Source of the DNA: Pseudobdellovibrionaceae bacterium | GTDB taxonomy: Bacteria > Bdellovibrionota > Bdellovibrionia > Bdellovibrionales > Bdellovibrionaceae | Length of the DNA: 39,272 nt | Direction of reading: 5' to 3' | Assembly (NCBI GenBank): GCA_013359135.1 | Contig: JABWCN010000043.1 | Coordinates: 1-39,272, forward strand | Shown: in pieces, positions 3,614-14,368 of the stretch | Position numbering within the stretch: position 1 is the stretch's first letter | Layout: the number at the start of each line of letters is the position of its first letter | The notes under the pieces: generated by a model | What the model was told of the DNA's origin: nothing | Database searches by the model: none | What the model saw: only the letters and a program-made list of their open reading frames with translations | Translations under genes and position numbers: made by a program

Positions 3614-4273
3614 TTAGCCAACCAAGTAAAGCAAAGGAAATAAAAAAATCCAAATCAAGTCAACAATATGCCAAAAAATCCCCACTCCTTCAACAGGAGT
3701 AAAATAATCTTCTCCAAACTCACCTTTTTGTGCTCTTAAGGCTAGCCAAACAATAAGCCCCATTCCAATTAAAACATGAAGTCCATGTAAACCAGTCATA
3801 CAATAATAAAATCCATAATACATACCTAGATTTGCTGATTCAGCTCCAGTATGAACAACATCCAACAACCGTCCAGGTAGAAATCCATGTTGAAATTTTC
3901 CAGTGTATTCGAAAGCCTTAATACACATAAAAATGACTCCACAACCAACAGTTAACCACAACTTAGTGACGGCTTGTGATTTCTCATTTTTCTGAAGGTG
4001 GTGAATAGACATCGCCATGGTATATGAAGAAAAAATTAGTACCAGAGTATTCACAAAACCTAGTTTCCAATTTAAATGGCTAGCTCCTTCTGCGAACATC
4101 TTAGGATAAAGTGCATGGAATATAGCATAACCAACAAACAAACCTCCAAACATTAGAATTTCAGTTACCATGAATAACCAAATTCCTTGCTTAGCACTTT
4201 CAAATTGGTGATTTGCATCTCTAAAGTGATGCGCTACATGTGAATCGTGTGTATGTGAACTACTTGTACTCAT
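3614..4273 (-). CDS. ctaE: Cytochrome c oxidase subunit III
   Basis: The protein has 219 residues: a His-rich N-terminus (7-22), then five hydrophobic helices, as in the short subunit III of caa3-type enzymes. Family blocks include [17 protein letters not shown] (30-46), [16 protein letters not shown] and, at the end, the [18 protein letters not shown] helix. Subunit III supports proton uptake and turnover stability of the core; it holds no redox centre. Its start lies inside the end of ctaD with a 14-bp overlap, so the two are probably translationally coupled. Confidence 0.93.
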
Positions 4274-5867
4274 AAGGCCCCGCTGTTACTACCGGCTCCA
4301 CATGAAAATTAGTATGCGGAGGAGGTGATGATGTTTGCCACTCTAATGTTTTTGCTCCCCAAGGATTATCGGAAGCTTTCTCGCCACTTCTTAACGCCGT
4401 AACGATTACATATAAGCTTAATAGAAATCCACAACCAATCAACCAAGATCCTATTGTTGAAATAGAATTTAATGATTGATACGCTGGAATATAATCAAAA
4501 TATCTTCTTGGCATACCCATAGCTCCCAAAATAAATTGAGGGAAAAAGGTTACGTTAAAGCCAATAAAAATTAAAACAAAAGTTAATCTTGCCAATGTTT
4601 CATTATACATTTTCCCAAACATTTTAGGGAACCAATAATAAAGTCCACCCATCAATGCCATCAATGTACCACCAACCATCACATAGTGAAAATGTGCCAC
4701 CACGAAATAAGTATCATGAAAATGAACGTCTGTTGCAATTGTTGCCAACATAATTCCAGTAACGCCACCAATTGCAAACAAGAATAAAAATCCAAGAGCA
4801 AATAACATTGGTGATTCAAAAGAAATATTTCCTCTATATAAAGTCGACAACCAGTTAAACATTTTAATCGCTGTTGGAACTCCGACCAGCATTGTTAAAA
4901 AAGAGAATACAATTCCAGCCACCTCTGATTGGCCAGATACAAACATGTGGTGTCCCCAAACAAAGAAAGACACAGCAGCAATCCCAATGGATGAAAATGC
5001 AATCGCTGTATAACCAAAAATTGTTTTTCTAGAAAAAGCAGCGATAAGCTCACTGACAACACCCATCGCAGGAAGAATCATAATGTAAACTGCTGGATGA
5101 GAGTAAAACCAGAAAAAGTGTTGGAAAAGCACAGGATCTCCACCAAGGTTAGGATCAAAAATTCCCACACCAAATGTTCTTTCCATAGCCAACAACAAAA
5201 GAGTAATCCCCAACACAGGAGTTGCTAAAATTTGAAGTACCGCTGTTGAGTATATAGCCCAAATGAATAATGGAATTCTAAACATAGTCATACCCGGGGC
5301 TCTTAACTTGTGAACAGTCACAATAAAGTTCAAACCCGTCAAAATTGAGGACATTCCCATAACAAACGCGGCAACTACCATCATTGTGGCAGCAGTACCT
5401 GTTTTAATAGAATAAGGAGTGTAAAAGGTCCAACCCGTGTCGATTTTACCTAAAAACAAAGTACAAATGGCAATGATAGCACCCAACATAAACACGTACC
5501 AGCTTGTTAGATTTAGCCTTGGAAAAGCCACATCTTTAGCTCCGATTTGAAGAGGCAAAAAGAAGTTTCCAAGAATCGCTGGAATTCCAGGAACAATAAC
5601 CATGAAAACCATAATGGCCCCGTGATATGTCATTACCTGATTATATTGATCGGGTGTTAAATACTGAGCTCCTGGTTTAAAAAGCTCTAACCTGATAAGC
5701 AAAGCAAAAAGCCCTCCCACCAAGAAAAAGAACAAAACTGAAATCATATAAAGTAAACCAATTCTTTTGTGATCTAAACTGGTAAACCATGACTTCAAAC
5801 CTTTAAATTCATTTATATAGTTCACTTCGCCGCTAGTATGGGAAGCTGTATGTGTTGATGCTGACAT
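4260..5867 (-). CDS. ctaD: Cytochrome c oxidase subunit I, A2 subtype
   Basis: This 535-residue subunit with 12 or more helices carries the heme and CuB centre that reduces oxygen to water and pumps protons. Visible ligands include the low-spin heme His in [10 protein letters not shown], the CuB His and cross-linked Tyr in [10 protein letters not shown], the HH pair in WGHHMF, and the [12 protein letters not shown] helix with heme ligands. The YSHPxV motif in place of GHPEV marks the A2 subtype, in which Tyr-Ser replace the D-channel glutamate; this is typical of caa3 oxidases. [20 protein letters not shown] retains the D-channel entrance Asp and Asn residues. A GGAG ribosome-binding site precedes the ATG. 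Confidence 0.97.
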
Positions 5868-5881
5868 TGTTTACTCCGTAA

Positions 5882-6838
5882 TTATTTTGCCGATTTAATA
5901 TATTCAATAATTGCACTTAACTCGTCTTCACTTAGTTGCCCTTGAAAAGAAGGCATAACTCCAGACGCAAAACCTTTAACAATTTTCGCATTAGGATTTA
6001 GAATAGATTCCCTGAGATAATTTTCATCCACACCTGTAGAGTCTCCAGAGGTCAACTCTTCCTTTGCTCCAAATTTTTTAAACAAAGAAGGACCTACTTT
6101 AACGCTAGCATCTGCTACTGAATGACAGCCAGAACAAGCTTTAATTTGAAACAATTTTTCACCTTTTTGAGCTATCGGTAAAGTGCTAAACTTAGCTTCT
6201 TCTTCAAGCCATTTATCATATTCTTCACGACTCACTACTTGTAATTTGCCAATCATCCCAGAGTGTTGAGTACCGCAGTATTCGGTACAAAAAATGTGAA
6301 AATCTCCAAGCTTATTAGCATTAAACCACACCGCTGTGTAACGCCCCGGAACAGCGTCTTGCTTAATCCTAAAACTAGGAACATAAAAACTGTGAATGAC
6401 ATCATTTGAAGCCAATATAATTTTAACATCAGTATCTATTGGCACCTTCACTAAATTTGCAGTTCTAACACCGCTTTTGTAAGTAGCTTCCCACGCCCAC
6501 TGTTTACCCGTAACATGAACTTCCAAAGCATCTTTTGGAAACTGCCTCATTTGATGATAAATGTGCCATCCCCATCCAAATACCACTAAAAATATAACAA
6601 GTGGTATAAATGACCACAAAAACTCCAAAAAAGTATTGTGAGTAATGTAAGCAGATTTTGCCGTCAGTGATTGTCTTTTATATTTGTAGGCAAAATAAAT
6701 CATTCCACCAATCAAAATCACACAAGCAATGAAGCTTGAAATCAACAGAAAGCTATAAAGGTTATTAACCTGTGAAGCCTGATCTGTAGCCGCAGTCGGC
6801 ATGAATTTACTTGCAAAAGCATATTGCATCCAGAACAT
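5882..6838 (-). CDS. ctaC: Cytochrome c oxidase subunit II fused to cytochrome c (caa3)
   Basis: The 318 residues comprise two N-terminal helices (about 28-50 and 72-92), a periplasmic cupredoxin domain and a C-terminal cytochrome c domain. The CuA ligands H149, C184, E186, C188, H192 and M195 are all present (CTEYCGTQHSGM). The heme c site is C235-SG-C238-H239, with M295 as likely axial ligand. This fusion defines a caa3 oxidase: electrons enter at the fused heme, pass to CuA, then to subunit I. AGGAG lies 7 nt before the ATG. It follows the Sco gene by 3 bp, matching Sco's role in loading CuA. Confidence 0.96.
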   Translation of the reverse strand: MFWMQYAFASKFMPTAATDQASQVNNLYSFLLISSFIACVILIGGMIYFAYKYKRQSLTAKSAYITHNTFLEFLWSFIPLVIFLVVFGWGWHIYHQMRQFPKDALEVHVTGKQWAWEATYKSGVRTANLVKVPIDTDVKIILASNDVIHSFYVPSFRIKQDAVPGRYTAVWFNANKLGDFHIFCTEYCGTQHSGMIGKLQVVSREEYDKWLEEEAKFSTLPIAQKGEKLFQIKACSGCHSVADASVKVGPSLFKKFGAKEELTSGDSTGVDENYLRESILNPNAKIVKGFASGVMPSFQGQLSEDELSAIIEYIKSAK

Positions 6839-6841
6839 GAA

Positions 6842-7723
6842 TTAACTCCTAACTGTACTTTCATTTTTTTTAATTCTTAACCAAAAAGGTAATAACCATA
6901 AAACCATTAGCAACACTATTAATGCACCACCAAGACGTACTAAGTTGAAAGCATAAAGCGCATATTTATTAGCTTGGGGATCATAATGAAAACAAAAAAG
7001 AATTACTTTATCAATTAAACTACCAATTTTTCCGTCAGCAGCTTCGTTGAGTGCTAGTTTAATGTCTTTGGCCTCAAATTGAATACCACCCAAATATCTC
7101 GAGATAATGCCCTCAGAAGTCGTCACAATAGCAGCTGAAGCATGTGACCACTCATTTTCTTTTTCATTCCATTTATACTTGAATCCCACAGAGTTTGTTA
7201 GTTTATCAAGGGTAGTTTGATCTGCTGTCAAAAAGTGCCATCCTTTTTCAGCATTTGGACGATTATATATCTCCATATATGTCTTCTTTTTATTTTTAGC
7301 CATTTCTGGAGTTTCTTTGCTGTCAAAACTTATTGCCAAAACTTCAAATTTATCACCAGGGTTCCAATCTACACCCTTAAGAACCTCTGTCATGCCATTG
7401 AGATGAAAATTACAAAGACTTGGACAGTTAAAATAAACTAAAGAAATAATAACTGGCTTATGAGATTGGTAAAAAGAACCTAGTTTTACACTTTCACCTA
7501 ATTCATTTTTAAAAGACAACTCTAAATCGATCTTTGAACCTAATTTCTGATCAATCCCCACACCTTCAAGTTGCTTAGGTGTTTGATTAGACAAACTGGG
7601 TAAAGTTTTTCCATCATACGTATCCATAGCCATTGCCTGACAAAAGAAAACCATAGAAAAAAGAGGAATGAAAACAATCAGTCCCTTCTTTAAGTTTAGA
7701 TTTTCTTCAAGCAAGCCAAGCAT
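6842..7723 (-). CDS. Sco-family copper chaperone/thiol protein for CuA assembly, membrane-anchored at both ends
   Basis: This 293-residue protein has a thioredoxin fold with the Sco copper motif C100-PSL-C104 and the distant ligand H194. A hydrophobic segment at 13-32 may act as signal or anchor, and a second helix near 263-282 followed by lysine-rich residues anchors the C-terminus. That second anchor is extra relative to classical Sco1/SenC but is seen in larger SCO proteins. It lies just upstream of ctaC, so copper delivery or disulfide reduction for CuA is the natural role. It is distinct from the shorter Sco in the nirK operon at 25834-26394. Confidence 0.88.
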   Translation of the reverse strand: MLGLLEENLNLKKGLIVFIPLFSMVFFCQAMAMDTYDGKTLPSLSNQTPKQLEGVGIDQKLGSKIDLELSFKNELGESVKLGSFYQSHKPVIISLVYFNCPSLCNFHLNGMTEVLKGVDWNPGDKFEVLAISFDSKETPEMAKNKKKTYMEIYNRPNAEKGWHFLTADQTTLDKLTNSVGFKYKWNEKENEWSHASAAIVTTSEGIISRYLGGIQFEAKDIKLALNEAADGKIGSLIDKVILFCFHYDPQANKYALYAFNLVRLGGALIVLLMVLWLLPFWLRIKKNESTVRS

Positions 7724-7774
7724 AGGAGTGTAACTTTCTATATTTTAATTGGTACTTTTTAATAAGCTTAAATT

Positions 7775-8311
7775 CTAGTTTGCTGTTTTTGCAAACTCAG
7801 CCACCTTGGCCGGATCATCTTTAGATTTATTTTGAGTAATTGATTCAATAAAATGAAGAATTGCCCATCTATCATAAGTCTTCAAATGTTGAAAAGAAGC
7901 CATAGATCCACCTTTAATACCATTAACTAGCACATTGTAATGAGCTATAATACCTTCACCCTGGGTCCACTTACCCTCAACCATATTACGTGGTTTTGGA
8001 TTCATACTAGCACTGGAAGGGCCATCCCCCTTACCTTCATTACCATGACAAACAGAACAGTTGTTCTTAAACACTTTAGCTCCATAAGTTATGATTTCAG
8101 GAGTCGATGTCCAAGGCTCTTTAACTGCTGACATATTAAAAACTGCGGCCGCTCCATCTTTAGTAGGTGCCCTAGGGTCTACGACATTTTCACCCAAATC
8201 AACTCCAGGATGAATAACCACAAGATAAAAGAAAAAACTAAACACAAAAACCATCGCAAAGATAAAAGCGGTAAAGCCACCTCTGTTATGAACATCAGAA
8301 GCATCTGACAT
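7775..8311 (-). CDS. Membrane-anchored mono-heme cytochrome c
   Basis: The ATG at 8311 with GGAG 7 nt upstream is chosen over a TTG two codons earlier, giving 178 residues. One N-terminal helix (about 12-33) anchors a periplasmic class I cytochrome c domain. In numbering from the upstream TTG, the heme motif is C87-SV-C90-H91 followed by GNEGKGDGP, and M139 in GGSMASF is a likely sixth ligand. Being first in the operon, it may pass electrons to the caa3 oxidase. It resembles the mono-heme cytochrome of alternative complex III, but no other complex III subunit is in the window, so that link is unproven. Confidence 0.85.
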   Translation of the reverse strand: MSDASDVHNRGGFTAFIFAMVFVFSFFFYLVVIHPGVDLGENVVDPRAPTKDGAAAVFNMSAVKEPWTSTPEIITYGAKVFKNNCSVCHGNEGKGDGPSSASMNPKPRNMVEGKWTQGEGIIAHYNVLVNGIKGGSMASFQHLKTYDRWAILHFIESITQNKSKDDPAKVAEFAKTAN

Positions 8312-8362
8312 AATCAATCTCCAAATCTATATCTGATTAATTTAATTAGAATTTATATATAA

Positions 8363-8543: not shown

Positions 8544-9635
8544 TTACTTTTTGGACAAAATACTTTCATCTTTTTCAAAAGCAAACTTTCCACCGCCGAT
8601 AGTTTCAACATAGCCTAAAGTAGGAAAGCCAAGGAAGTCATGTCCTTGAAACATAATTGAAGTTCCAGAAACAATGTGAGAAACCCAAGCTGCCGTAAAC
8701 CTAGGAACTACGGCATTAATATAGTGCCCCACCCCTTGAACAAACACTCTACTCATTCTTGCCTGTGGATTCACTTTTCTCCAAAAAACATCTAAAACAT
8801 ATGGCAACACTAAATTATCCATAGCGCCCACAATAAGATGAATTTTACCAGCTGGATAATTAGGCGCCAATTTCTCTGTAAGGACTCTTCGAATTCCTTG
8901 TGTTAGTCTAAATGTACTTTCTTTTTTATACTTAACTGTATTCAAAGAAGGCTCCCCAACAGGAAACATAGTGTATACAAAAATTTTCAAATAATAATCA
9001 TAATTTTGATCGTAGGTCCAAGAGTTGAAGGGATACAAATAACTTGTCATTAAAATTTGAGTTCTAATCCAGTTGTCTTGCCAATCAACAGGACGGGTAT
9101 ATGGGGCCATTAAAATCAAATTTTTGACTAATTGAGGATATTTAGAAACAAAAACCTGACCAATACCTCCACCATAAGAATGGCCTACTAAGTTATAAGG
9201 TTTTGGAACATTTAATTTTTCAAGTAATATTCTCAAGTCTTCAACTTGATTTTCAGGAGCAATCATATCCTTAGGTTCGCCATATCTAGCTAAGGTTCGT
9301 CCTTGACCATAAAAATCAAACCGCACAACACCCATACCTTTTGAAACAAGGTATTCCGTCATCCCATTCCAATCCTCAGTGGTTGCGGTCAAACCATTTA
9401 AAAAAACAATTGTTGGCTTATTGGCTTGAGGCTGAATGTAATCAAAAAACAATTGTTTGTTATCAGCTACAGCAGCCCAATTCTGAATTCTTTGAACTGG
9501 AGAAATAACTCTCGCTCCTGAAGCTTTGCCAACAAGAGCCACCTGGGCCGGAGCCTTGAAGCTAAGTAGAAATCCGAAAATTAAAAGAAAAGTACCGAAT
9601 ATTTTAGTTGTTATTGCTTTCTCTTGATGGGCCAT
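8544..9635 (-). CDS. Secreted alpha/beta hydrolase
   Basis: This 363-residue protein has a signal sequence or anchor (helix about 12-30). The hydrolase core carries the nucleophile elbow GHSYGGG with S153, the acid D273 in VGAMDNLV and H304 in GVGHYINAVV, so the catalytic triad appears complete. HG is replaced by NG near the oxyanion loop (FLNGLTATTEDW). The substrate cannot be read from sequence; an esterase or lipase is plausible. AGGAGGG lies 5 nt before the ATG. It has its own promoter and terminator, so it is probably monocistronic. A second secreted hydrolase with a similar GHSKGGG elbow is at 35466-36740. Confidence 0.85.
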   Translation of the reverse strand: MAHQEKAITTKIFGTFLLIFGFLLSFKAPAQVALVGKASGARVISPVQRIQNWAAVADNKQLFFDYIQPQANKPTIVFLNGLTATTEDWNGMTEYLVSKGMGVVRFDFYGQGRTLARYGEPKDMIAPENQVEDLRILLEKLNVPKPYNLVGHSYGGGIGQVFVSKYPQLVKNLILMAPYTRPVDWQDNWIRTQILMTSYLYPFNSWTYDQNYDYYLKIFVYTMFPVGEPSLNTVKYKKESTFRLTQGIRRVLTEKLAPNYPAGKIHLIVGAMDNLVLPYVLDVFWRKVNPQARMSRVFVQGVGHYINAVVPRFTAAWVSHIVSGTSIMFQGHDFLGFPTLGYVETIGGGKFAFEKDESILSKK

Positions 9636-9787: not shown

Positions 9788-10537
9788 CTACAATACAATT
9801 CCACCATCAACACTTAAAACAGTGCCATTGATATAAGACGCCTGTTCTGAGGCCAAATACAAGCACGCATTAGCGATATCATCAACTTCACCAAGTCTTT
9901 GTACAGGTACCTTAGCGGCCATTCCATCAAGTACTTCTTTAGGCATAGCATTGGTCATTGAGGTCTTAATAAAGCCTGGAGCAACAGCGTTAACTGTGAA
10001 ACCTTTTCTGCCCAATTCTTTTGCAAGTGTTTTTGTAAAACCAATTACACCAGCTTTTGTTGCCGCATAATTAGCTTGTCCAAAGTTACCGTACAAACCA
10101 ACAACACTTGAAATATTAATTACGCGCTTATGAGCTGAAGAAGAATTAAATTTTTCAAGTAAACCTTTTGTGACGTTATAGAGACCAGTTAAATTAGTAT
10201 TAATAACCGCATCCCAATCAACATCTGTCATTTTGACAAAAGATTTATCTTTAGTAATACCCGCATTATTGATAACAACATCAACCGACCAAGGAAGAGC
10301 TGTTATAGCTGTCGCTAAAGAGTCTCTTTTGGTAACATCAACTTGAGCAAAGTGAAGTTGACTTGCATATTTACCAAGTTCCTTTTGAGCCGTATCTAAA
10401 GCTTGCTGAGAATAATCCCATACTACAACTTTAGCACCAGCTTCTAAAAAAGAAGTGGTTAATTTAAATCCAATACCAGCCGCACCACCTGTGACAACAA
10501 CGACTTTATTAGAAAAATTATAGGTTACATTTTGCAT
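9788..10537 (-). CDS. 3-oxoacyl-ACP/CoA reductase, short-chain dehydrogenase (FabG-like)
   Basis: A start at 10537 is chosen because AAGGAAA lies 6 nt upstream; a 15-codon extension has no such signal. The resulting 249 residues are the usual FabG length. The NAD(P)-binding loop TGGAAGIG is at 16-23, NNAG at 90-93, and the catalytic set N115, S144, Y157 and K161 is complete (YAATK). The enzyme would reduce 3-ketoacyl thioesters with NADPH. It is divergent from a KAS III-like gene and an acyl-CoA synthetase, suggesting a shared acyl-chain pathway. The location away from a fabD-acpP cluster makes a specialised reductase, or a PhaB-like acetoacetyl-CoA reductase, possible. Confidence 0.85.
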   Translation of the reverse strand: MQNVTYNFSNKVVVVTGGAAGIGFKLTTSFLEAGAKVVVWDYSQQALDTAQKELGKYASQLHFAQVDVTKRDSLATAITALPWSVDVVINNAGITKDKSFVKMTDVDWDAVINTNLTGLYNVTKGLLEKFNSSSAHKRVINISSVVGLYGNFGQANYAATKAGVIGFTKTLAKELGRKGFTVNAVAPGFIKTSMTNAMPKEVLDGMAAKVPVQRLGEVDDIANACLYLASEQASYINGTVLSVDGGIVL

Positions 10538-10971
10538 ATCTTTTCCTTTGAAAGAGTTTTTTTGAAGCAATTTATTAATCACTTTTTTGCATTCACAAGC
10601 GGGTATCCCATAAAATTAATTATAAAACAATAATCTAAATCATACTTGTTTAAACTCAACCAATGACTTTAATTAAAAGCTATTATTGAAATTAAATTTA
10701 AATCGATCCAATGACCATTATTAGTATTTTTGCTCTATAAAGTTTTCTTGCCAAACAACCCTCTTTTATATACTGACTCAAAAGTAGAGTTTTTGTTTAA
10801 AACACCTCTTTCTTGAATTTGCGGTTAATGAAGAGCGACCTGGTTTCACAATCTAGGTAGTTAGTTACTTAATTGAGTCATCTGAAATTAGTCACCTGGC
10901 TTTTTAAAAACTAAATACTGATTTAAGCAGAAACTAAAACGAACCAATTTATTTCTACGAAAGGATTATTT
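10538..10971. other. Divergent intergenic region between the FabG-like and KAS III-like genes
   Basis: These 434 bp are AT-rich and must hold the promoters of both divergent genes. A perfect TATAAT is visible on the minus strand near 10622-10627 but has no good -35 partner. An AATCTAAATCA stretch near 10632-10642 matches only half of the FNR-type palindrome seen elsewhere in this window. I see no convincing open frame, hairpin or RNA gene. AAAGGA precedes the ATG at 10972. Confidence 0.5.
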
Positions 10972-11970
10972 ATGAGAAATGCAACTATTATCGGAACTGG
11001 AATGTATGCGCCAGAGAGAGTAATTAAAAATGATTACTTCAATGATCTTTACAAAAAAGATCTAGATACTTTTTTAAAAACCCAACGAAATATTTCAGAA
11101 CGTCGCTGGATGAGCCCAGAACAAACTACTAGTGATCTTATAATGCCAGCCGCGCAAGAAGCTCTTAAAAACGCAGGCATCACAGCTCAAGATTTAGATA
11201 TGATTATTGTCGCCACAGATACACCTGATTACTTATCTCCCTCTACGGCTTCAGTAGTTACTTATCGCCTTGGTGCCACGAAAGCAGGATCATTTGACTT
11301 GAATACAGCCTGCGCTGGTTTTGTCACCGCACTTGAGGTAGCTCAAAAATTTATCAAAGCTGATGAACAATTCAATCACATTTTAGTTGTTGGAGCTTAT
11401 GCCATGAGTAAATGGTTAAACTTCGATGATTACAAAATTGCATCTCTTTTTGCAGATGGAGCTGGAGCCGCGGTTCTTAAATCTACAAAAGACACGAAAG
11501 GCTTCATGTCTTCCACTTTTTATACTGATGGGCAATATCATGACTATATGGGGATATACGCAGGTGGAAGCTATAAACCTGTCACACACGAAGCAATTGA
11601 GAAAAAAGAACACCTATTGGCATTTCCCAAAAGAATTCCACCTGAAACCAACGGAATTCATTGGCCAAGATTAACTCAAATCGTATTAGATAAAATTGGC
11701 AAAAAACCTGATGACGTAGCTCATTTTTTTATTACTCAGTTTAATGTACAAAGCATCTATGAAACCATGGATAAATTGAATTTGCCAAGAGACAGATCTC
11801 ATTACATCATGGACAAGTATGGCTACACAGGAAGCGCCTCTATTGGAATGTGCTTAGCGGATGCAGTTCGTCAGCATAAGCTTAAAAAAGGAGATCTGGT
11901 AGTTATGCTTGGCTCTGGTGGTGGCATGTCCATGGCGGCCTTAACATTGGAGTGGGGCTATAACACTTAA
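10972..11970 (+). CDS. Ketoacyl-ACP synthase III-like enzyme (thiolase fold) with altered catalytic residues
   Basis: The 332 residues span the FabH family length and fold. C114 in NTACAGF is the expected nucleophile, and the glycine-rich end GSGGGMSM is present. However, the His of the canonical PHQAN motif aligns with Q256 (ITQFN), and the Asn of GNTS aligns with Y285 (YGYTGSAS). A standard decarboxylating FabH uses Cys-His-Asn, so this protein may do non-decarboxylative acyl transfer or condensation. It is followed 18 bp later by an acyl-CoA synthetase, which could supply its thioester substrate. It is unlikely to be the housekeeping FabH. Confidence 0.85.
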   Translation: MRNATIIGTGMYAPERVIKNDYFNDLYKKDLDTFLKTQRNISERRWMSPEQTTSDLIMPAAQEALKNAGITAQDLDMIIVATDTPDYLSPSTASVVTYRLGATKAGSFDLNTACAGFVTALEVAQKFIKADEQFNHILVVGAYAMSKWLNFDDYKIASLFADGAGAAVLKSTKDTKGFMSSTFYTDGQYHDYMGIYAGGSYKPVTHEAIEKKEHLLAFPKRIPPETNGIHWPRLTQIVLDKIGKKPDDVAHFFITQFNVQSIYETMDKLNLPRDRSHYIMDKYGYTGSASIGMCLADAVRQHKLKKGDLVVMLGSGGGMSMAALTLEWGYNT

Positions 11971-11988: not shown

Positions 11989-13512
11989 ATGAAAACCGAA
12001 TTAGATTGGTTAAAAAAATGGAGTCAGTATTCACCTAATAATATCGCTATCAAAGATGGCGAAACTGGACAGGAATTTTCCTACAAATCTTTTTATGAGC
12101 TTTCTCACAAAGGAGCTCATATTCTGCGTGAAAAATTTCATATTGAAAAAGGTGACCGTGTTGCTGTCCTTGCAACTAATGAGCTAGAATATGTATTTTT
12201 ATTTTACTCTTTGCAAAGACTAGGTGCTATCATGGTCCCAGTTAACTTTAGACTTACACAAAGAGAAGTTGATCACATTATTACGGATTGCTCTCCCAAA
12301 TTGGTAGTTCACCAAGAAGCTTATGATTCAATTATCAAAAACTTACCTAATGTGAATTATAAAAGACAGTCCTACTTATTAAGTGATTTTTCTAAAGATT
12401 TAGGATGTCAGGAATCAAAAGCTTCTTACATTGAAGGACTTAAAAAAATTGATTTTGTTCCTGATTCTCAAGACGGAGCAATGATTATTTACACTTCTGG
12501 AACTACCGGTGCACCCAAAGGAGCTCTGATTTCATACGACATGTTATTTTGGAATTCTGTTAACACCACATTGAGACTTAACATTTCCCAAAATGACTGC
12601 ACAGTCATCTTCCTTCCTTTTTTTCACACTGGAGGATGGAACGTACTTACAACACCATTTTTACACCGTGGTGCTAAAACTATTTTCTTGAAAAAATTTG
12701 ATGCTGAGCAAATTCTAAAGTTGTCATCTCAAGATAAAGCGACAATTCTTTTTGGCGTTCCAACAACTATGGACATGATGGCAAGAACTTCTATCTTCAA
12801 AGACATAGACATATCTACTCTAAGATATGCTATTGTTGGCGGTGAACCAATGCCTGTTGATCTAATAAAAGTTTGGCACAACAAAGGGATTCCAATCAGA
12901 CAAGGATATGGCCTTACTGAGTTTGGACCAAACGTTTTCTCATTAAATCAAGAAGATGCCATTAGAAAAATTGGCTCAATTGGCTTCACTAATTTTTATA
13001 CTGAAGCTAAAATTGTCGATAATGATGACAAAGAACTTGGTAATAACGAAATTGGTGAATTAGTACTGCGCGGACCTATGTGTATGACAGGTTACTGGAA
13101 TAATGAAAAAGCAACAAAAGAAACTATTAAAGATGGCTGGTTGTATACTGGTGATCTGGTTAAAAGAGATGACGAAGGTTATTACTATGTCGTAGGAAGA
13201 AAAAAAGATATGTACAAATCAGGTGGTGAAAATGTGTATCCTCCTGAATTGGAACAGGTCCTAAGACATCATCCTGGCGTCAGAGAAGTTGCCGTAATTG
13301 GCGTTCCTGACTCTAAATGGGGCGAAGTTGGAAAAGCTTTTATCGTAAAAGAAGACAACACTTTGAGTGAAGATAGCCTTAATGACTACTGTCTTAAAAA
13401 CTTGGCTAAATTCAAAATACCAAAATATTTTGTATTCGTTAATGAGTTACCCAAAGGAGACTCAGGCAAAATTTTAAAAAGAAAACTTCTTGAGATGTAT
13501 CCTAATAATTAA
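11989..13512 (+). CDS. AMP-forming acyl-CoA synthetase (ANL superfamily)
   Basis: This 507-residue enzyme activates a carboxylic acid to acyl-AMP and then acyl-CoA. The ATP loop TSGTTGAPKG lies at about 169-178, the GYGLTEFGP motif near 311, YTGDL near 387, the hinge GRKKDMYKSGGENV after it, and the adenylation lysine in GDSGKILKRKL is K494. All core motifs are intact and the length is typical for medium- to long-chain fatty acyl-CoA ligases. It appears co-transcribed with the KAS III-like gene (18-bp gap, AAGGAAC upstream of the ATG). Chain-length preference cannot be read from the sequence. Confidence 0.92.
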   Translation: MKTELDWLKKWSQYSPNNIAIKDGETGQEFSYKSFYELSHKGAHILREKFHIEKGDRVAVLATNELEYVFLFYSLQRLGAIMVPVNFRLTQREVDHIITDCSPKLVVHQEAYDSIIKNLPNVNYKRQSYLLSDFSKDLGCQESKASYIEGLKKIDFVPDSQDGAMIIYTSGTTGAPKGALISYDMLFWNSVNTTLRLNISQNDCTVIFLPFFHTGGWNVLTTPFLHRGAKTIFLKKFDAEQILKLSSQDKATILFGVPTTMDMMARTSIFKDIDISTLRYAIVGGEPMPVDLIKVWHNKGIPIRQGYGLTEFGPNVFSLNQEDAIRKIGSIGFTNFYTEAKIVDNDDKELGNNEIGELVLRGPMCMTGYWNNEKATKETIKDGWLYTGDLVKRDDEGYYYVVGRKKDMYKSGGENVYPPELEQVLRHHPGVREVAVIGVPDSKWGEVGKAFIVKEDNTLSEDSLNDYCLKNLAKFKIPKYFVFVNELPKGDSGKILKRKLLEMYPNN

Positions 13513-13525
13513 AAATGATTTAGCT

Positions 13526-13557
13526 AGCCCATGTGTCTTAACAGACAATGGGCTTTT
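13526..13557 (+). terminator. Terminator after the acyl-CoA synthetase gene
   Basis: AGCCCAT (13526-13532) pairs with ATGGGCT (13548-13554), extended by TGTCT with AGACA beyond a single bulged G and closed by a TAAC loop. Four T follow on the plus strand. It abuts the stop codon of the convergent AlkB-like gene at 13556. Confidence 0.7.
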
Positions 13558-14368
13558 AGAGTTTAATTTGCTCTTGAAAAAATGATGATTTTTCAGAAAG
13601 TTTAAGCATATATTCGTGAACATCTCGCTGCAAATTTTCAGGAAAAAGTCGGTAAGGCTTTATATGCTCAGTTGGAACATACCTAAAAGTAAGATTAATC
13701 CTTCGTGTGATAAAATTTTCTACTTTGACTTGAAAAGGTTTTCCAGATTTTTCTTCTACTCTTTGTACACGGTGAAATAATTTTTTTTTGAATTTCTCTC
13801 CACCAAAAACTTGCAAACAAGAGTCTGAAAGCCATTGCTGCAAAATCACCTTACTCTTTTGGGCTCTGTCCCGACCACTACTTTCAACAAATTGGAATAA
13901 AGCTCTATCTCCAAATGAAATCGAAGCAACTGGCCCAGGCTCAAAATCCTTATGCTCACCAACTCTGGCTAAATCTATTGTTTGATTATCTCGAACTTCT
14001 GTCCCGTAATAATTTACTAGGCAGGTATTCAGATGCCACTTATGAGGAATATCACTCGGGGAAAATTCATTACGTACCTTATTCTCAACATCATCAACAA
14101 CCCTTTGCATGAAATCCGGGAAAGGTTCAGCTTCAACACATCGATAATCGATACCCCTAGGAGGGTGATAATAATTTAAACATGCGAATTGCCAGTTACC
14201 AAGCCAATAAACTGGCCTCAACAATTTTCTTTGCTGATCCCCCTTAGGTGGTGGATTACTCTCTGAAAAACGATTTTCCCAAAGCGGGGTCAACCCCTCC
14301 AAGTAGTCAACAAATTGCACACGTAAAGATTTTGAAATATAATTTTCTTCAAAAATAAGATTCTTCAT
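13556..14368 (-). CDS. AlkB-like Fe(II)/2-oxoglutarate dioxygenase
   Basis: The 270-residue protein shows the AlkB-family core: NTCLVNYYG (114-122), the iron ligands H139-K-D141 in GEHKDFEPG, SFGDRALFQF (151-160), the distal iron ligand H199 in LFHRVQRV, and the 2-oxoglutarate/Fe signature R223-x-N225-x-T227-x-R229, which matches AlkB's RxNxTxR exactly. Such enzymes oxidatively demethylate DNA or RNA bases, while some act on protein. Residues 1-110 form an extra N-terminal region with WLGNWQFACLNYYHPP, suggestive of a substrate lid. It stands alone between convergent and divergent neighbours. A DNA-repair role is likely but unproven. Confidence 0.85.
   Translation of the reverse strand: MKNLIFEENYISKSLRVQFVDYLEGLTPLWENRFSESNPPPKGDQQRKLLRPVYWLGNWQFACLNYYHPPRGIDYRCVEAEPFPDFMQRVVDDVENKVRNEFSPSDIPHKWHLNTCLVNYYGTEVRDNQTIDLARVGEHKDFEPGPVASISFGDRALFQFVESSGRDRAQKSKVILQQWLSDSCLQVFGGEKFKKKLFHRVQRVEEKSGKPFQVKVENFITRRINLTFRYVPTEHIKPYRLFPENLQRDVHEYMLKLSEKSSFFQEQIKL

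Follow-up and report, generated by a model that had tools for sequence, protein, structure and literature searches.

A His-less KAS III-like subfamily with a new invariant Asp and a gene context that points to acid or ester breakdown

FabH decarboxylates malonyl-ACP and holds the enolate by means of a His and an Asn. Non-elongating ketosynthases lack the His, and OleA and PpyS are non-decarboxylating KAS III relatives that use an acidic base. The OleABCD proteins comprise a thiolase-fold enzyme, an AMP-binding enzyme, an SDR, and an α/β hydrolase. The catalytic Cys of OleA is presumably Cys143, which places the Glu of this enzyme 26 residues ahead of it. The OleA base is supplied by the partner subunit. 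For PpyS, an excerpt of one paper gives the residues C129, H281, and N310, with a Glu that sits 24 residues ahead of the Cys (PMC4578411); the Glu of OleA is Glu117 in the same excerpt and in a second one (PMC7064751), which also names OleA, OleC, and OleD together. The active site of human HMGCS1 is listed in an extract as Glu95, Cys129, and His264 (PMC9458500), and ChlB3 appears in another extract as a KAS III-like acyltransferase (PMC9573744).

The window—the whole stretch of DNA analyzed here, 39,272 nucleotides of contig JABWCN010000043.1 from a Pseudobdellovibrionaceae bacterium (assembly GCA_013359135.1)—contains a genuine open reading frame for a KAS III-like protein of 332 residues (Table 1). 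Both KAS III Pfam domains (PF08545 and PF08541) exceed their cut-offs in this protein, and FabH chains are its top sequence matches among solved structures (among the best 60 of 70 matches). The NCBIfam fabH models stay below cut-off: TIGR00747 with 220.1 against 292.1 and PRK09352 barely, with 248.6 against 249. An AlphaFold2 model, for which 95 aligned subfamily members served as input, reaches a pLDDT of 96.7 and a pTM of 0.94. Its Foldseek matches are FabH and BioZ, and comparison with FabH-fold structures by VIA-align yields Z values of up to 47.4, with an rmsd of 1.5 over 318 residues for Escherichia coli FabH (6x7r). Hence, the KAS III fold is present by Pfam domains and by model comparison alike. 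Among the viral families of PHROGs, no match was found at E 0.001. The same genome holds two KAS III matches, namely the window protein and, on another contig, an ordinary FabH that carries HQAN and GNTS and lies ~1 kb from an ordinary FabG.

Table 1. Positions of the genes and codons discussed, in the window or in the named locus
Feature	Sequence	Positions	Strand	Remarks
KAS III-like protein, 332 aa	window	10972..11970	+	ORF call; AlphaFold2 model; FabH fold
Asp83 codon, new invariant acid	window	11218..11220	+	139/139; HMG-CoA synthase Glu column
Cys114 codon, nucleophile position	window	11311..11313	+	139/139
Asn227 codon, new invariant Asn	window	11650..11652	+	139/139; FabH-like set Ala 23/24
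Thr255 codon, FabH catalytic His position	window	11734..11736	+	Thr 128, Asn 11 of 139
Tyr285 codon, FabH catalytic Asn position	window	11824..11826	+	Tyr 139/139; FabH-like Asn 24/24
Acyl-CoA synthetase (AMP-binding)	window	11989..13512	+	best NCBIfam model PRK06839, below cut-off
FabG-like SDR	window	9788..10582	-	GLYGNFGQANY motif; NAD-type Asp (VVVWDY)
α/β hydrolase	window	8544..9635	-	GHSYG; likely signal peptide (by eye)
Cytochrome c and SCO1/SenC-like genes, two further genes	window	4260-8317	-	beside the module
AlkB-like 2OG-Fe(II) oxygenase	window	13556-14368	-	PF13532
PRK06840, second unusual KAS III family	L208	13400-14425
PRK06840	L220	6126-7151
PRK06840	L203	12670-13719
PRK06840	L239	10004-11038
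Type 2 PHA depolymerase-like gene	L201	12496-13728		Gammaproteobacteria

In HMMER alignments, the FabH motif PHQAN lies opposite ITQFN of the window protein, and GNTS lies opposite GYTG. Hence, Thr255 occupies the position of the catalytic His and Tyr285 that of the catalytic Asn, while Gln256 is the Gln kept from HQAN and the nucleophile position still holds a Cys (Cys114). The best match from each of 238 loci was compared, and proteins identical over residues 41–200 were collapsed, leaving 169 rows. Two groups were separated by their tblastn score against the query (at least 222 versus at most 213 bits), independently of the catalytic residues. Six rows were excluded. Three were first-group fragments; the other three came from the second group and were L097, which has masked letters, L127, in which both His and Asn are present, and L128, a PRK06840-like protein of 24% identity that lacks the FabH pattern. 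The sets compared are therefore 139 subfamily members of at least 300 residues and 24 FabH-like sequences.

The Cys114 and Gln256 columns are uniform in both sets, with Cys and Gln, respectively, in 139/139 members and in 24/24 FabH-like sequences. The "His" column, by contrast, is His in all 24 FabH-like sequences versus Thr (128) or Asn (11) in the subfamily, and the "Asn" column is Asn in 24/24 versus Tyr in every member, so that both decarboxylation residues are missing from 139/139 proteins. Five residues are invariant in the 139 members and new to the subfamily: Asp83 (a column with Val in 17/24 of the FabH-like group), Gly194, Asn227, Trp231, and Gly287. Tyr143, likewise new compared with FabH, is found in 138/139, and Ser315 in 135/139, where 19/24 of the FabH-like group have the Phe of the FGGG loop. 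Judged by the alignment, Asp83, Asn227, and Tyr285 would lie near Cys114. The variant with Asn at position 255 occurs, among others, in the Bipolaricaulota loci L183, L184, and L187–L190. In one Bdellovibrio metagenome assembly, represented twice among the loci (as L020 and L039), the KAS gene is broken by an in-frame stop codon, which is either a sequencing error or the mark of a decaying copy.

The original prediction of a KAS III-like enzyme with its Cys retained and with His and Asn replaced is borne out for the fold, for Cys114, and for the exchange of Asn by Tyr285; it named the wrong residue for the His, which gave way to Thr255 and not to the neighboring Gln256. A substitute His and Asn elsewhere in the protein were sought by alignment: no His is invariant in the subfamily (the best, His277, is present in 84/96 members of alignment A1), and Asn227 is both invariant and new, so that at most the Asn, one of the two residues, may have a counterpart in the active site. 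The suggestion that the protein belongs to a subgroup with different chemistry agrees with the loss of both residues from every member and with the single group that the members form in the tree described below. Chemistry other than that of FabH is very likely for this subfamily, and the case for it is strong. The opposite reading, a KAS III that still decarboxylates with Thr255, Tyr285, and Asn227 in place of His and Asn, draws on the fold, on the closeness to FabH sequences, and on the PRK09352 score just under its threshold; against the universal loss of the two decarboxylation residues and the presence of an ordinary FabH near an ordinary FabG in the same genome, it is very unlikely.

Loss of the His with retention of the Cys would also fit an enzyme in which Cys114 does no more than pass acyl groups on from CoA to a different acceptor, and KAS III-like acyltransferases such as ChlB3 do exist. 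The invariant new residues Asp83 and Tyr285, however, suggest more than a loss of function, and neither CerJ nor ChlB3 is among the best 60 of 70 or the best 60 of 103 matches listed, which is weak evidence. Such an acyltransferase is regarded as rather unlikely.

In an alignment with L113, a Streptomyces plasmid protein that is annotated as HMG-CoA synthase and shows 19% identity, Asp83 shares its column with the Glu of ATES; the distance from acid to Cys is 31 residues in the window protein and 32 in L113. That the ATES Glu corresponds to Glu95 of human HMGCS1 is judged from this spacing and from Glu79 and Cys111 of the staphylococcal enzyme. The Cys/Glu/His set of HMG-CoA synthase is nevertheless incomplete in the subfamily, which has an Asp in the Glu column, the Cys, and no conserved His. 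The position of the OleA and PpyS Glu, 24–26 residues before the Cys, is Ser in 132 and Thr in 7 of the 139 members, its equivalence to position 89 resting on spacing only. Together, the retained Cys and the acid gained where HMG-CoA synthase has its Glu suggest α-carbon chemistry without decarboxylation.

The 139 members span Bdellovibrionota, the Ignavibacteriae/Bacteroidetes class, Bipolaricaulota, Gammaproteobacteria, and Chloroflexota. One genome scan yielded 68 loci, part of them ordinary FabH, and further genome searches added many. Counted as matches at E 1e-62 to 1e-66, with residues checked only in the loci fetched, strict matches occur in 76/368 genomes of Bdellovibrionota (the phylum of the window), 55/341 of the Ignavibacteriae/Bacteroidetes class (L080, L075), 20/100 of Bipolaricaulota (the phylum of L085), and 3/53 of the gammaproteobacterial order of L088. 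The distribution is patchy, and several genomes from the genus of Bdellovibrio bacteriovorus are without a match. On plasmids, 400 records match the window protein; of the two examined, one carries a member—a Chloroflexota plasmid, on which it is annotated as ketoacyl-ACP synthase III—and the other an ordinary KAS III with HQAN.

A maximum-likelihood tree was calculated from 56 proteins, including 28 subfamily members (selected at less than 66% pairwise identity, with L112 added to make up this number). Herein, the 28 members form a single group (support 92/95, not starred), and eight PRK06840-like proteins, one of them a fragment, form its sister (96/91). All 19 FabH-like proteins are found on the same side of a branch supported at 96/91. 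With a branch length as great as 6.45 for HMG-CoA synthase, the root is uncertain. The model behind the sister family, PRK06840 (NF005308, "3-oxoacyl-ACP synthase"), scores the window protein below cut-off, with 171.1 against 315 bits. A PRK06840 match lies near 8/81 subfamily loci. Haloarchaeal relatives—30–32% identical to a PRK06840 protein and assigned by this identity, not by model score—directly follow permease genes of branched-chain-type ABC importers on 3/3 plasmids examined, which supports a catabolic use for this branch of the fold.

The literature searches found no mention of the name PRK06840 in paper text and no paper that brings together an acyl-CoA synthetase and a 3-oxoacyl synthase III in Bdellovibrio; for FabH-like proteins with retro-Claisen cleavage or thiolysis, a single paper came up, which concerns BioZ. 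The subfamily is real and widespread and is without a name of its own in these searches, which did not cover every possible name.

In the window, the acyl-CoA synthetase gene starts 18 bp downstream of the KAS gene on the same strand, the FabG-like SDR gene is divergent from the KAS gene across 389 bp, and the α/β hydrolase gene is located beyond it. Neighbors were counted by tblastn (E 1e-15, within 7 kb) at 81 homologous loci for which 4 kb or more of flanking sequence was available on each side. A FabG-type SDR match lies near 76/81, a synthetase match near 74/81 (76/81 if CoA-transferases are counted), an α/β hydrolase match near 71/81, an importer match (any of three query proteins) near 26/81, and a match to a thiolase or SCP-x-type thiolase near 13/81. 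The control is small: at seven FabH-like loci, three have an SDR match and none has a match to synthetase, hydrolase, or the other queries.

This gene set recurs across phyla, with an operon order that varies by lineage. Much of the Ignavibacteriae/Bacteroidetes class has MarR–SDR–KAS–sodium symporter or MFS–synthetase–(PRK06840)–lipoprotein–outer membrane protein–hydrolase(s)–(thiolase), part of Bipolaricaulota has TetR–hydrolase–synthetase–SDR–KAS–hydrolase–ABC importer, and three Gammaproteobacteria have TonB receptor–KAS–synthetase–hydrolase. An SDR match is lacking at both gammaproteobacterial loci tested by tblastn and, by clustering, at a third. A CoA-transferase takes the place of the synthetase at two loci, L112 (the Chloroflexota plasmid) and L220; neither of the two kinds of enzyme is matched at L187–L190 and L051, the latter also being without SDR and hydrolase matches. 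Importer matches are found at only 2/43 Bdellovibrionota loci. By gene clustering, a thiolase gene is inside eight of the mapped operons. At L183 and L184, it is located beside the KAS gene, in addition to a synthetase, and L187–L190 have an SCP-x-type thiolase, in 3/4 of these loci with a DUF35-type protein.

Several further genes adjoin the module. On the minus strand of the window, cytochrome c and SCO1/SenC-like genes stand beside it together with two genes taken for cytochrome oxidase subunits, and the cytochrome c and SCO1/SenC-like genes are retained there in 19/104 clustered loci. The synthetase gene is followed closely, on the opposite strand, by an AlkB-like oxygenase gene, for which no match was found at E 1e-8 in the compared loci listed. 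In the gammaproteobacterial locus L201, a gene resembling type 2 PHA depolymerases is situated two genes upstream of the KAS homolog; its score of 218 bits falls short of the curated cut-off (280 bits), and it is a possible hint at polyester breakdown. PHA degradation as the source of the substrate was set aside as a lead only: the gene clusters with no other locus, and the corresponding genes of L200 look different.

In SDR enzymes, an acid after the second strand favors NAD rather than NADP. An SDR was hit at 125 loci; the position following the second strand is occupied by Asp at 118 of them and by Glu at 4, and a motif of the YGNFGQ type is present at 120/125. The FabG near the ordinary FabH of the window genome has neither the NAD-type acid nor YGNFGQ, and the same is true of the three SDRs near FabH-like loci. 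The motif thus separates the window SDR from the FabG of fab operons, without fixing a substrate. By the sum over two domains, its best solved match is 2et6, a (3R)-hydroxyacyl-CoA dehydrogenase in which both domains bear YGNFGQANY; the per-domain scores of 108 and 119.5 bits are under those of one-domain oxoacyl reductases such as 4nbu (217 bits, motif YGNVGQ). With a 56-residue fragment around the motif, 2et6 again comes first by the sum, followed by 4nbv. The motif is also carried by 4nbv (GLYGNFGQTNY), named an oxoacyl reductase, and by 4nbw, named an SDR, both of which we take to be NADH-dependent FabGs. Because 2et6 leads only by its domain sum and 4nbv shares the motif, the apparent tie of the window SDR to (3R)-hydroxyacyl-CoA dehydrogenases is weak.

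The pairing of the KAS gene with an acyl-CoA synthetase gene and the divergence of the FabG-like reductase, seen in its NAD-type Asp and YGNFGQ motif, had both been part of the original prediction and are confirmed. The unusual acyl product expected from them is not favored: with a CoA-transferase or ligase, an NAD-type dehydrogenase, hydrolases, some thiolases, and importers at part of the loci, the gene context points instead to the breakdown of acids or esters.

The same neighborhood may be read in the direction of C–C bond formation, either as an aldol reaction like that of HMG-CoA synthase or as a Claisen reaction like that of OleA; the SDR would then reduce the product, and ligase and hydrolase would correspond to OleC and OleB. 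The column of Asp83 fits this reading, as do the names of the closest one-domain solved SDR relatives (oxoacyl reductases) and the enzyme classes of the module—thiolase-fold enzyme, SDR, AMP-binding enzyme, and α/β hydrolase—which are those of OleABCD. The OleABCD analogy is, however, downgraded because the stretch in which PpyS and OleA have their Glu holds Ser89 and no acid, and because a CoA-transferase can replace the ligase. With the NAD-type partner SDR and with importers and thiolases in some of the operons also speaking against it, C–C bond formation is unlikely.

The reading preferred here, tentatively and with residue roles, direction, and substrate that we infer, is a non-decarboxylating, thiolase-like enzyme that acts on C–C bonds in a catabolic pathway; the case for catabolism is fair. 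Given the NAD-type dehydrogenase and the CoA-activating partners, the simplest pathway would lead from an acid via its CoA ester to a 3-oxoacyl-CoA and its cleavage. An ester or acid would be hydrolyzed and imported, converted to its CoA ester (synthetase or CoA-transferase), and oxidized as the 3-hydroxyacyl-CoA, perhaps in its (3R) form, by the NAD-type dehydrogenase, whereupon the KAS III-like enzyme would cleave the 3-oxoacyl-CoA. Herein, Cys114 may form or release the acyl-enzyme, Asp83 may serve as acid/base for the carbanion beside the thioester like the Glu of HMG-CoA synthase, and Thr/Asn255 and Tyr285 may be hydrogen-bond donors that replace His and Asn and could form an oxyanion site. 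Spelled out in full—a His-less KAS III machinery of Cys, Asp, Tyr, and Thr/Asn that acts as a FabH-derived thiolase on 3-oxoacyl-CoA from (R)-3-hydroxy acids, in an (R)-specific, β-oxidation-like module of five bacterial lineages with PRK06840 as its archaeal and bacterial sister—the proposal is doubtful.

We know of no characterized CoA-dependent thiolase without a His. Another thiolase would not be needed where the operon includes one already (eight of those mapped) or in the window genome, in which four thiolase-family matches reach E 1e-40 or better. The four matches speak against a generic thiolase role, so that either the substrate is special or the thiolase idea is wrong. The notion that the KAS protein is the only thiolase of Bdellovibrio was discarded, since a thiolase-family match above cut-off occurs in 137/138 genomes of the order and the window genome has the four named above.

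For annotation, the label "ketoacyl-ACP synthase III" conveys a reaction whose defining residues are gone in every member compared, and metabolic models would err in counting these proteins among the fatty-acid starters. Should the catabolic reading be true, a FabH scaffold would have been rewired toward the breaking of C–C bonds without the usual His. As a speculation, predatory Bdellovibrio might in this way use hydroxy acids derived from their prey, such as those of storage polyester or of lipid A chains.

Compared with the known systems, the subfamily resembles FabH in its fold, the Cys, the Gln of HQAN, and the two KAS III Pfam domains. It differs in the replacement of His by Thr/Asn, of Asn by Tyr, and of the FGGG-loop Phe by Ser315, and FabH lacks Asp83, Tyr143, Asn227, and Trp231. 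With HMG-CoA synthase it has in common the Cys and an acid 31–32 residues upstream of it; the His of that enzyme falls in the His251 column, and because only 49/96 members have a His there, the subfamily is not classed as an HMG-CoA synthase. OleA and PpyS differ from it by their Glu position, which is Ser89 in the window protein. In the three PRK06840 proteins aligned, a Glu stands in the Asp83 column, Trp231 is present, and the Cys is kept, while the Asn column holds a His in 3/3 and a further His, within LHFK, is found in 2/3, the third being without a His at this place.
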